Made by a program: the position numbers and the translations under genes. A DNA stretch of 64,000 nt from a bacterium (GTDB taxonomy: Bacteria > Bacteroidota > Ignavibacteria > Kapaibacteriales > UBA2268): the NCBI GenBank assembly GCA_024711295.1, contig JANJTB010000002.1, forward strand, positions 1 to 64,000. The letters run 5' to 3'. Below the pieces are notes generated by a model. The model ran no database searches. It was given only the letters and a program-made list of their open reading frames with translations, and was not told the DNA's origin. Positions 1,700-30,911 of the stretch are shown here, in pieces (position 1 is the stretch's first letter; each line of letters begins with the position of its first letter).

Positions 1700-1704
1700 A
1701 ATTG

Positions 1705-1795
1705 CGGAGAGGGAGGGATTCGAACCCTCGGTAGCGGATGTTACCACTACGTCGGTTTAGCAAACCGGTGCATTCAGCCACTCTGCCACCTCTCC
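1705..1795 (-). tRNA. tRNA-Ser (anticodon GCU)
   Basis: On the minus strand the 7-bp acceptor stem GGAGAGG/CCTCTCC, the GGTTCGAATCC T-arm and the anticodon loop TTGCTAA are all visible. The long variable arm (a 7-bp stem GTAGTGG/CCGCTAC) marks a class II tRNA, and anticodon GCT with discriminator G identifies serine, reading AGC/AGU codons. CCA is not encoded: the 3' end continues GCA-ATT. The first anticodon-stem pair is a C-A mismatch, slightly unusual. Its own promoter is at 1818-1848. Confidence 0.95.
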
Positions 1796-1797
1796 GA

Positions 1798-1812
1798 TTA
1801 GCATTATGCTAA
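1798..1812. repeat. Perfect 15-nt palindrome between the tRNA promoter and tRNA-Ser
   Basis: TTAGCATTATGCTAA is a perfect inverted repeat (7-bp arms, 1-nt centre). It fills the space between the predicted transcription start and the mature tRNA 5' end, so it would form the leader of the precursor or serve as an operator. Confidence 0.45.
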
Positions 1813-1817
1813 GAGTA

Positions 1818-1848
1818 CAAAAGTAATACTTTTTCTGATTATAGCAAA
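1818..1848 (-). promoter_or_regulatory. Promoter of tRNA-Ser
   Basis: On the minus strand TTTG (1848-1845), 19 nt, then TACTTTTG (1825-1818) match the Bacteroidota promoter pattern. The predicted start is close to 1812, about 17 nt before the tRNA. It begins 4 nt after the stop of the SDR gene, so the tRNA is probably transcribed independently. Confidence 0.6.
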
Positions 1849-27532: not shown

Positions 27533-29617
27533 ATGAATTTTCTTAATCCATTAGTTTTAATCGGCTTAATCGCAGCCTCAATTCCTGTACTACTTCACCT
27601 GCTTAATCTAAGGAAGCTTAGAACTGTGGAGTTTTCTTCATTGAAGTTTCTGAAAGAACTCCAAAAAACTAAAATTAAGAAACTCAAGTTAAAGCAAATA
27701 TTATTGCTCATTCTGAGAACATTAATAATTATATTTGTAGTTTTGGCATTTGCAAGGCCAACCATACCGGGTTCATTACCATTTTTTGAATCATATTCAA
27801 AGTCGAGCATAGTAATATTGCTTGATAATTCTTTTAGTATGGATATCAGCGATGAATACGGCAATAGGTACACACAGGCAAAATTACAAGTCAATCAAAT
27901 TTTATCCTCACTCAATGAAGGAGATGAAGTTGCTCTCATTCCCTTTGTTGATGATAATAAACAGACATCAACATTTACAAAAAATTTTGATAATATAAAA
28001 GAAAAACTGTCAAAAATTAAGATTTCTTTAGAGACAGGAAATTTAAATAATGCTTTGCGGCGGGCATCTGCAGTAGTTGATGATGCAAATAATTTAAACA
28101 GAGAAATTTTTATAATTAGTGATGCTCAGCAGAATATTTTTGAAATACTAAACAATGACACTTTAAAATTAGATATCAATGTTTCGAATATTGCTTTCAT
28201 TGGCATCGGCAATGATTCTAAAGCAGATTTACAAAATGTTTCCGTTGACTCTTTAAAAGTTGTGTCAAGAATTTTCCAAAAAGAAAAACTTGTTGAAACA
28301 GAAACTTTTATTAAAAATTCGTCAAAAAATACTATCAGTGACGTAGTTATTGGCATGAGCTTTAATGGAAATTCTGTATCACAGAGAAGTTCTGATTTAA
28401 ATTCAGGTGAAACCAAGAATATTTTAATCTCAGCTATACCTAACATAGATGGTAATATAAAAGCATCAATCGAGCTGGAGAGTGATATATTTGATTATGA
28501 CAACAAACGGTATTATGGATTTTCAATACCTCCAAAACCCAGAATATTAACTGTTGAAAGCAATCCATTTTTGAAATTGGCTACTTCCAATTTAGCTGAA
28601 AACGAGCTTAGAACAAACATTAAAGATATAAGTAAAGAGCAACTATCATCAGAAAATCTTACTAATTATGATGTAGTGATAATTAACAGCACAAAACTAT
28701 CATCTTCAAACTTAAGCAGGCTATCAAAGTACTTGAAAGATGGTGGTACCCTACTGCTTTTCCCAACTGATGAAATCAATGAAGAATTTTCGAAGTTTCT
28801 GACAGAATCCGGCATAGGTGCTGTGAAGCAGATGAAGTTTACTTCTGATGAACCTGCTAGTTTTATGAATATTGACTTTGACCACCCTATTTTTGAAGGT
28901 GTTTTTGAAGACAAGGGAGGGAAAATTAATCAGATTGAGACACCTAAAATAATAGAAGCTTATCCTGCACAGAGTGCTCGTTCACTTATAACAATGAATG
29001 GTGGTGCATTTCTTTCTGAAGCAAAATTTGTAAATGGTAAAATTCTTTATTTTGCTGTAAGTCCTGATGCAAATATGAGTAACTTTTCTTTTACAGGTCT
29101 ATTCCCATCATTAATCTATCGCTCAATACTTTATCTTAGTTCAACAGAAGATTTAAGTATGAATGTTAACATTGGTAATTCAGTCATTTATAAGCTCCCA
29201 TCTAAAGAAAACGGAATAAATTTTATTATAATTGACCCGAATGGGAATGAATCATTTTACCAGGCTGTACAATTACCACAGGGGAATTCTCTGAATATAG
29301 ATAAGCTGAGAATTCCAGGAGTTTATACAATTTTTAATGAAAATAAGAAATATGTTGCTCAAATTTCTGCAAATCTCCATCCTTCTGAATCAAATTTTAC
29401 TCTTCCGTCTTTAGATATTATCGAGAAAGAATTAAAGTCAAGATTTGGAGATTTACCTCATTTTTATATATCTTCATTAGATGATATTCGCTCAGTAATT
29501 AAGCGTGCAAGAATTGGAACAGAACTTTGGCAATTATTTTTGGTCCTTGCATTATTGGCAGCTTTAGCTGAAATGATTGTTCAAAGAGTTTCAAAAAATG
29601 AAACCGGTGAAAATTGA
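27533..29617 (+). CDS. BatA-type protein with VWA domain
   Basis: 694 aa. The N-terminal ~85 residues are the double-transmembrane BatA domain (NPLVLIGLIAASIPVLLHLL; KTKIKKLKLKQILLLILRTL; AFARPTIPG). A VWA domain follows (about 88-260) with an intact metal site LLDNSFSMD. The middle is beta-rich, and the protein ends with a transmembrane helix near residue 665. BatA/B proteins in Bacteroidota usually sit with batC-E and moxR genes, but none are adjacent here. Role in the cell envelope stress or aerotolerance complex is inference from family. The gene is divergent from the secreted giant, across a 218-bp gap. Confidence 0.88.
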   Translation: MNFLNPLVLIGLIAASIPVLLHLLNLRKLRTVEFSSLKFLKELQKTKIKKLKLKQILLLILRTLIIIFVVLAFARPTIPGSLPFFESYSKSSIVILLDNSFSMDISDEYGNRYTQAKLQVNQILSSLNEGDEVALIPFVDDNKQTSTFTKNFDNIKEKLSKIKISLETGNLNNALRRASAVVDDANNLNREIFIISDAQQNIFEILNNDTLKLDINVSNIAFIGIGNDSKADLQNVSVDSLKVVSRIFQKEKLVETETFIKNSSKNTISDVVIGMSFNGNSVSQRSSDLNSGETKNILISAIPNIDGNIKASIELESDIFDYDNKRYYGFSIPPKPRILTVESNPFLKLATSNLAENELRTNIKDISKEQLSSENLTNYDVVIINSTKLSSSNLSRLSKYLKDGGTLLLFPTDEINEEFSKFLTESGIGAVKQMKFTSDEPASFMNIDFDHPIFEGVFEDKGGKINQIETPKIIEAYPAQSARSLITMNGGAFLSEAKFVNGKILYFAVSPDANMSNFSFTGLFPSLIYRSILYLSSTEDLSMNVNIGNSVIYKLPSKENGINFIIIDPNGNESFYQAVQLPQGNSLNIDKLRIPGVYTIFNENKKYVAQISANLHPSESNFTLPSLDIIEKELKSRFGDLPHFYISSLDDIRSVIKRARIGTELWQLFLVLALLAALAEMIVQRVSKNETGEN

Positions 29618-29779
29618 TTTAATCAGACATAATAATCTGCATAAATTCGGTAATTATTAAGATGTTTTAATGCCCAGAAATGTAGTTTTTGAAGCAAATT
29701 ATAATTTTTTACATATAATTGACATATAATAACTTACAAATGTTACAACAACAATAATTGTTACAAAAAAATAATTTTA
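29618..29779. other. AT-rich gap upstream of the small transcription unit
   Basis: No reading frame is supported. Several short inverted repeats are visible, for example AACAATAATTGTT near 29750. No strong promoter or terminator is seen until 29780. Confidence 0.5.
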
Positions 29780-29811
29780 TTTGGTTTAGAACCTAAACGA
29801 AATTACTTTTG
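29780..29811 (+). promoter_or_regulatory. Strong promoter of an uncalled small transcription unit
   Basis: TTTG (29780-29783), a 20-nt spacer and TACTTTTG (29804-29811) are a complete match to the Bacteroidota TTTG / TAnnTTTG pattern. The expected transcription start is near 29816-29818. A hairpin (GTTTAG/CTAAAC) sits in the spacer region and may be a regulator site. Confidence 0.6.
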
Positions 29812-29838
29812 AACCAAGTATTCTAAACAATACAACAA

Positions 29839-29907
29839 ATGTGGTTTAATCATATAAAATCATTAGAGTTTAAAAAACTTCAGTCAATTTTGTTAAGAGA
29901 AATTTAA
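29839..29907 (+). CDS. Possible 22-residue small protein or leader peptide
   Basis: ATG TGG TTT AAT ... ATT TAA, reading MWFNHIKSLEFKKLQSILL plus REI. It starts about 22 nt after the predicted transcription start and stops 14 nt before a strong terminator, so the whole unit (29780-29950) contains promoter, short frame and terminator and nothing else. No ribosome site is seen, and a 22-codon frame can arise by chance in AT-rich DNA, so it may equally be a non-coding small RNA of about 130 nt. The peptide is basic with an amphipathic-looking helix. I do not recognise it. Confidence 0.35.
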   Translation: MWFNHIKSLEFKKLQSILLREI

Positions 29908-29921
29908 CTAAACATATTTAC

Positions 29922-29950
29922 AAGCTCTCAAAGAAATTTGAGAGCTTTTT
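29922..29950 (+). terminator. Strong intrinsic terminator before folD
   Basis: AGCTCTCAAA-GAAA-TTTGAGAGCT is a perfect 10-bp stem with a GNRA-like tetraloop, followed by TTTTT. It closes the small transcript and lies 77 nt ahead of the folD ATG. Confidence 0.9.
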
Positions 29951-29986: not shown

Positions 29987-29994
29987 TATATTTG
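29987..29994 (+). promoter_or_regulatory. -7 element of the folD promoter
   Basis: TATATTTG matches TAnnTTTG and ends 32 nt before the folD ATG, downstream of the terminator, so folD likely has its own promoter. No TTTG box at 19-20 nt is seen. Confidence 0.35.
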
Positions 29995-30026: not shown

Positions 30027-30911
30027 ATGGCAATCATTATTGATGGCAAGTTAGTAGCTGAAAAAATCAGAAATGATATCAAAGTAAAAACGGAAATATT
30101 AAGCCGGGAAAGAGGGATTAAGCCTGGATTAGCACTTTTGCTCGTCGGCAATAACCCTGCATCAGAAATTTATGTAAATATGAAATTCAAGGCATGTCAG
30201 CAATTGGGATTTCATTCACTAATAAAAAGATTACCTGATGATGTTAATGAGCATGAAGCGCTGGGAATCATAGCCCAGTGGAATAATGATAGTTCAATAC
30301 ACGGAATTTTAGTACAACTTCCATTACCTAAGCAAATAAATGAAAACAGAGTTATTAATGCAATATCTCCATCAAAGGATGTAGATGGATTTCATCCGGT
30401 CAATGCCGGTAATTTAATGCTTGGATTACCCGGATTTGTTCCTTGTACTCCAGCAGGAATAATGGAATTATTTAATCATTACAACATTTCTCTGAAAGGA
30501 AAACACGCAGTTGTAATCGGAAGGAGTAATATTGTTGGCAAACCTATAGCTAATCTGATGTTGCAAAAAAATCAAAATGCCAATGCCATTGTAACGCTTT
30601 GTCATTCGCAAGCAGAAGACATATCATATTATACCAAACAAGCAGATATTATAGTTGCCGCTATCGGAGTCGCCAATTTTGTTAAAGCGGATATGGTTAA
30701 AGATGGAGTTGTAATTATAGATGTTGGTATTAATAGAATTGATGATGCCGGTACAGAAAAAGGTTACAAAATAGTTGGTGATGTAGATTATCAGGAAGTA
30801 TCTCACAAAGCCGCAGCAATTACACCTGTTCCCGGCGGAGTTGGTCCTATGACAATTGCAATGCTAATGTCCAACACTTATGATTCGGCCTCAGGTAAAT
30901 ATGCATTCTGA
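30027..30911 (+). CDS. folD: Bifunctional methylenetetrahydrofolate dehydrogenase/cyclohydrolase
   Basis: 294 aa, standard FolD length. The YVNMK segment (catalytic lysine), VQLPLP, SKDVDGFHPVNAG, PCTPAGIMELF and VIGRSNIVGKPIA (NADP-binding) are the family motifs, and the C-terminal PVPGGVGPMTIAML completes it. It interconverts methylene-, methenyl- and formyl-tetrahydrofolate in one-carbon metabolism, supplying formyl groups for purines. It overlaps the downstream pseudouridine synthase gene. Confidence 0.97.
   Translation: MAIIIDGKLVAEKIRNDIKVKTEILSRERGIKPGLALLLVGNNPASEIYVNMKFKACQQLGFHSLIKRLPDDVNEHEALGIIAQWNNDSSIHGILVQLPLPKQINENRVINAISPSKDVDGFHPVNAGNLMLGLPGFVPCTPAGIMELFNHYNISLKGKHAVVIGRSNIVGKPIANLMLQKNQNANAIVTLCHSQAEDISYYTKQADIIVAAIGVANFVKADMVKDGVVIIDVGINRIDDAGTEKGYKIVGDVDYQEVSHKAAAITPVPGGVGPMTIAMLMSNTYDSASGKYAF

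Follow-up and report, generated by a model that had tools for sequence, protein, structure and literature searches.

A candidate small RNA gene with its own predicted promoter and terminator in the spacer upstream of folD in a Kapaibacteriales bacterium

The window analyzed here, a stretch of 64,000 nucleotides, is part of contig C8 of a 3.45-Mb genome in 40 contigs (G000). The element under study occupies part of the 409-nt spacer that separates folD from a gene with BatA and VWA domains (BatA-like gene), with all three on the plus strand (Table 1). Direct reading of the sequence confirms the promoter, which is of the Bacteroidota housekeeping type, and the 22-codon ATG...TAA frame of the original prediction, with 14 nt separating the stop codon from the stem of an intrinsic terminator. 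For the latter, the perfect stem, the GAAA loop, and the T5 tract up to 29950 are as predicted, while the stem comprises 11 bp instead of 10 bp. The two promoter boxes enclose a palindrome. As a regulon site, this palindrome (GTTTAG-N3-CTAAAC) was rejected, since it is not enriched in the genome (2 sites vs. 1 for the reversed-pattern control).

Table 1. Features of the spacer and its flanking genes, in window positions.
Feature	Position	Strand	Details
Gene with BatA and VWA domains	27533-29617	+	BatA-like gene
Promoter, housekeeping type (sigma-ABfr/SigA-like)	29780-29811	+	TTTG (-33) at 29780-29783, N20, TACTTTTG (-7) at 29804-29811
Palindrome GTTTAG-AAC-CTAAAC	29784-29798		Between the two promoter boxes; putative, possibly an operator
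Predicted transcript, ~130 nt	29818-29950	+	Start and end predicted from the -7 box and the T tract, respectively
Candidate ATG frame MWFNHIKSLEFKKLQSILLREI	29839-29907	+	22 codons plus stop; TAA ends at 29907
Intrinsic terminator, GAAA loop, T-rich tail	29922-29950	+	11-bp perfect stem, 29922-29947, AAGCTCTCAAA-GAAA-TTTGAGAGCTT; T5 at 29946-29950
Separate folD -7 box TATATTTG	29987-29994	+	First base 40 nt before the folD ATG
folD	30027-30911	+	About 80 nt from terminator stem to folD start

Promoter and terminator are both rare by chance. Among 4000 simulated spacers of 409 nt with the dinucleotide make-up of the real one, 106 contain a loose promoter (TTTG-N17-22-TAnnTTTG) and 4 the strict form (TTTG, N18-21, TACTTTTG). 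A perfect stem of at least 10 bp with at least four G-C pairs and a T tract occurs in none of them, nor does the combination of promoter and stem. A looser terminator scan is uninformative (1 found vs. 4.9 expected). The terminator folds with −15.0 kcal/mol (z −4.96), which is equaled by none of 200 shuffles. The body of the transcript upstream of it has a z of 0.16, and 106 of 200 shuffles fold equally well. The predicted transcript as a whole has a z of −2.76, which consequently stems from the terminator.

A survey of the strict motif (TTTG-N18-21-TACTTTTG) reveals what such promoters serve in this genome. G000 contains 33 copies compared to 8 of the reversed pattern, and classification covered the 30 copies with loci. 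Thirteen are located inside ORFs and are taken as chance matches. Seven precede tRNA genes, and another seven precede protein genes, apparently including rpsL and rplU. Two are found in the leader of an rRNA operon with a recognizable 16S start, and the sole unassigned copy is the promoter of the element. In sum, 16 of the 30 classified copies reach tRNA, rRNA, or gene starts. The tRNA-Ser unit on the minus strand of the window (1704-1848), for instance, has a strict promoter just upstream. In the tRNA-Val, -Asn, -Ser, and -Leu units of G000, the distance from the −7 box to the terminator end is 128, 129, 138, and 157 nt, respectively, compared to 136 nt in the element. Thus, the element shares its promoter motif and a similar spacing to the terminator with these four tRNA units of its own genome; in contrast to them, it contains neither a tRNA nor another Rfam family.

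The motif is likewise abundant in the two congeners G001 and G002, with 47 strict copies vs. 9 reversed-pattern copies in each genome, of which 30 of 47 were classified in either case. Four copies in each congener fall into the class “other”; two of the four in each resemble an rRNA leader, with the 16S start itself visible in G002. The class also contains one strict copy in G002 positioned directly upstream of SRP RNA, one congener copy (L200) ~95 nt upstream of an apparent gene, and the two unassigned copies L211 and L250. Since the motif precedes tRNA, rRNA, and SRP RNA as well as genes, it marks stable RNAs and ordinary genes. For L211 and L250, two of the 60 classified congener copies, the surrounding spacers yielded neither a terminator nor, within 250 nt, a gene start; given these two, the strict motif is an imperfect guide to transcription units.

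Several arrangements of the motif are worth recording in their own right. In G000, two strict promoters separated by 321 bp belong to the rRNA leader (L178/L179), and in G001 three strict promoters spaced by ~130 bp (L213/L214/L215) stand in sequence resembling this leader. In L250 (G002:C266:4947 onward), a TTCG-loop hairpin comes after an orphan TACTTTTG promoter, the same strand lacks an ORF of 60 residues over ~450 nt, and no Rfam family matches; this locus is possibly another RNA gene.

The position of the hairpin bears on which gene it terminates. We surveyed a G000 sample of 294,452 bases, of which 72,000 read N and 222,452 were readable, using greedily picked ORFs as genes and counting a hairpin that faces both ways twice. 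Within these readable 222 kb, a stop codon on the same strand precedes 18 of 24 intergenic terminator calls by 3-46 nt, whereas the terminator of the element follows the BatA-like gene at 305 nt. The five other exceptions comprise both faces of a hairpin beside tRNA-Asn, the reverse face of a hairpin terminating a minus-strand gene, a hairpin located 109 nt past a stop codon and, by eye, within coding sequence, and a 16-bp hairpin followed by a T run on the minus strand at C8:125900-125934 (L058:1900-1934). The last has no same-strand gene near it and no Rfam family in L058. If the spacer held no separate gene, the hairpin would be a distal terminator of the BatA-like gene and the promoter match accidental. 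The two share a strand, and a terminator scan of 29618-29921 found no other terminator for this gene. Nevertheless, we consider this explanation unlikely, given a distance of 305 nt against the usual 3-46 nt and a strict promoter that arises by chance in just 4 of 4000 simulated spacers.

Since promoter and terminator are rare by chance and the motif is validated within the genome, a real transcription unit is likely. The ~130-nt unit of the original prediction is well supported by the within-genome controls (motif survey, terminator survey, and simulated spacers), all of which operate on sequence, and it is likely self-contained and apart from folD.

The downstream gene has a −7 box of its own beyond the terminator, and a box at −40 from the folD ATG is present in 3/3 genomes of the genus, in agreement with the earlier argument that folD does not need read-through. 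In G001, −7 boxes are found at −49, −40, and −25, and G002 carries TACTTTTG at −40. No TTTG is present at the −33 distance from the folD box of G000. The gene order around the spacer is not shared: the upstream neighbor of folD is a different gene in G001, the G002 contig ends 315 nt upstream of folD, and in 0 of 13 further folD loci with ORFs does the upstream ORF end like the BatA-like gene. Conversely, folD is not what stands downstream of the BatA-like gene in either congener, nor in any of the four other relatives that carry this gene at full length. The spacer is therefore specific to the gene order of its own species among the genomes examined.

These data weigh on the option of a folD attenuator or leader, in which the hairpin would be conditionally read through to feed folD. 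Such a role would be in line with the shared strand and the ~80 nt between stem and folD start. However, the folD −7 box is located past the terminator and is matched at −40 in both congeners, where no element-like sequence was found. Moreover, a strong antiterminator is lacking, as the best alternative pairing of the left terminator arm is weak (−6.7 vs. −14.3 kcal/mol), and Rfam contains no riboswitch or leader family matching the element. The element is probably not a folD leader, and we regard attenuation as scarcely credible.

As an mRNA of a 22-residue protein, the unit would have a ~20-nt leader, the ATG at 29839, the stop at 29907, and the terminator 14 nt on. This stop-to-stem gap falls within the range of ordinary genes described above. 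Further, when the 104-nt body is shuffled with its dinucleotides preserved, an ATG frame of such length arises in 1.9% of cases, or a frame as long in 5.6% with GTG and TTG starts counted; under a Markov null built from intergenic DNA, the value is 3.5%. By these figures, the frame stands out less than the promoter and the terminator. A like anatomy exists in the same genome at C8 90769->90550 on the minus strand (C8:90550-90769; L056:6550-6769), where an extremely basic frame of 30 codons (MPCGKKKKRHKM...) lies behind a TTTG-N20-TATATTTG promoter and, as judged by eye, stops ~13 nt ahead of a hairpin. This frame matches no Pfam or NCBIfam family; its product may resemble the tiny basic ribosome-associated proteins of Bacteroidota. 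Because this unit has the same promoter-frame-hairpin anatomy, anatomy alone does not speak against a small protein.

The start context of the 22-codon frame, however, is weak. The 20 nt before ATG 29839 are without any G, a base that is enriched at −8 to −11 in the genes of this genome. Of 151 genes, with starts set at the first ATG and not curated, 4.6% have a start context that scores no higher. In addition, a search of 59 relatives with the peptide gives a single match (E 0.6), and the 22 residues belong to no Pfam or NCBIfam family. Codon usage is uninformative: with a score of −2.6 (gene windows 5.2 ± 4.3; first 21 codons of genes 1.6 ± 4.8; random −4.4 ± 3.3), the frame falls between genes and random frames; 28% of random frames reach this score, and 23% of gene starts do not exceed it. 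We rate the small-protein mRNA as the main rival, possible but rather doubtful. A combination of both functions, in which a lineage-restricted unit would use its tRNA-class promoter to express an RNA strongly and would also encode the 22-residue peptide, with the spacer palindrome as operator, appears very improbable. The original prediction had offered an sRNA, a small-protein mRNA, and an attenuator side by side; with the attenuator disfavored, the evidence leans toward the sRNA without deciding against the protein. On balance, we favor a free-standing intergenic sRNA gene with an unstructured body, as judged from its sequence.

Homology searches do not place the element in a family. By DNA search, 59 relatives and 53 family genomes contain no convincing homologue (matches of 26-47 nt only), no element-like sequence was found in the congeners G001 and G002, and a plasmid collection gives no match. 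Rfam searches at the gathering score and with permissive settings return sub-threshold hits to unrelated families only. A covariance model, for which the one sequence was entered twice and strict filters were applied, reaches a best non-self E of 0.14 in the 59 relatives, and 14 of 60 genomes, its own included, have any match at E ≤ 10. Of the nine inspected among the 17 non-self matches, four are at ORF ends with other terminators and four inside ORFs; the best match (L070, G006) is in a spacer before an ORF, and its 120 nt of upstream sequence lack a −7 box. Permissive local alignment to the loci examined, controlled by shuffled queries, yielded a G001 match (L197; 75% over 76 nt), which was rejected because it falls within an ORF of 999 residues and because 3 of 60 shuffled queries reach its score or a better one.

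As no convincing homologue is found in relatives, purifying selection is not demonstrable. The lack of a homologue says little, since the congeners are already distant (folD identities of 76% and 72%). Among the best 80 of 590 folD matches in named genomes, the top one is from an Ignavibacteria bacterium (UBA4661) with 60% identity; Candidatus Kapaibacterium reaches 56% and other phyla up to 59%. Prediction of base-pairing targets at 165 gene starts gives no signal, with 29 of 40 shuffled bodies performing equally well or better, and folD ranks 132nd of 165.

If expressed, the element would resemble 6S RNA (RF00013, RF01685) as a short stable RNA. Its identity as 6S RNA was rejected, as the structure of the body is at chance level (z 0.16) and Rfam gives no hit for it. 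The 6S families themselves have no match at E ≤ 1 in G000, G001, or G002, so that 6S RNA is missing from these genomes or too divergent to be recognized.

For the favored sRNA, the following course can be proposed. RNA polymerase with the housekeeping sigma factor would start ~7 nt after TACTTTTG, near 29818, and would stop at the hairpin and T tract (29922-29950), yielding an RNA of ~130 nt. The first 100 nt of this RNA are rich in A/U and probably unpaired for the most part, while the 3′ end would be capped by the stable hairpin. Speculatively, the RNA might act in trans by base pairing via its open 5′ part, similar to Bacteroides intergenic sRNAs.

Such genes have precedents. In Bacteroides thetaiotaomicron, 49 high-confidence intergenic sRNAs were chosen by transcription start site plus terminator, of which 22 are conserved in at least two genera and 27 are strain-specific; a canonical promoter is found in 76% of the intergenic candidates, and several of the sRNAs carry long unfolded stretches (PMC7366714). 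Like these sRNAs, e.g., GibS, the element is intergenic, with its own promoter, an intrinsic terminator, and low GC, and it is as poorly structured as some of them. In contrast, the B. thetaiotaomicron sRNAs were detected by RNA-seq, with some also visible on Northern blots, while the element is known from its sequence. It also belongs to a distant lineage, and GibS itself is conserved in Bacteroides (PMC7366714). The Rfp series of Flavobacterium psychrophilum provides a second parallel, comprising short independent transcripts outside the annotation with a TAnnTTTG promoter, which typically have no coding potential and have a median length of 176 bp (PMC9723704). The Rfp transcripts are experimentally mapped, and many may have homologues in the genus (PMC9723704), whereas the element is read from the genome. 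A literature search for small RNAs in Kapabacteria and for sRNA promoters in Ignavibacteria found no paper.

Most likely, the element is a common kind of thing, a small regulatory RNA for which no relative has been found. It represents a cleanly bounded sRNA candidate in what is probably a little-studied lineage. Because the strict motif copies outside ORFs, among the 30 classified, led to tRNAs, rRNA, and genes, and once to this unit, orphan pairs of motif and terminator could list sRNA genes without RNA-seq, and the approach may generalize.
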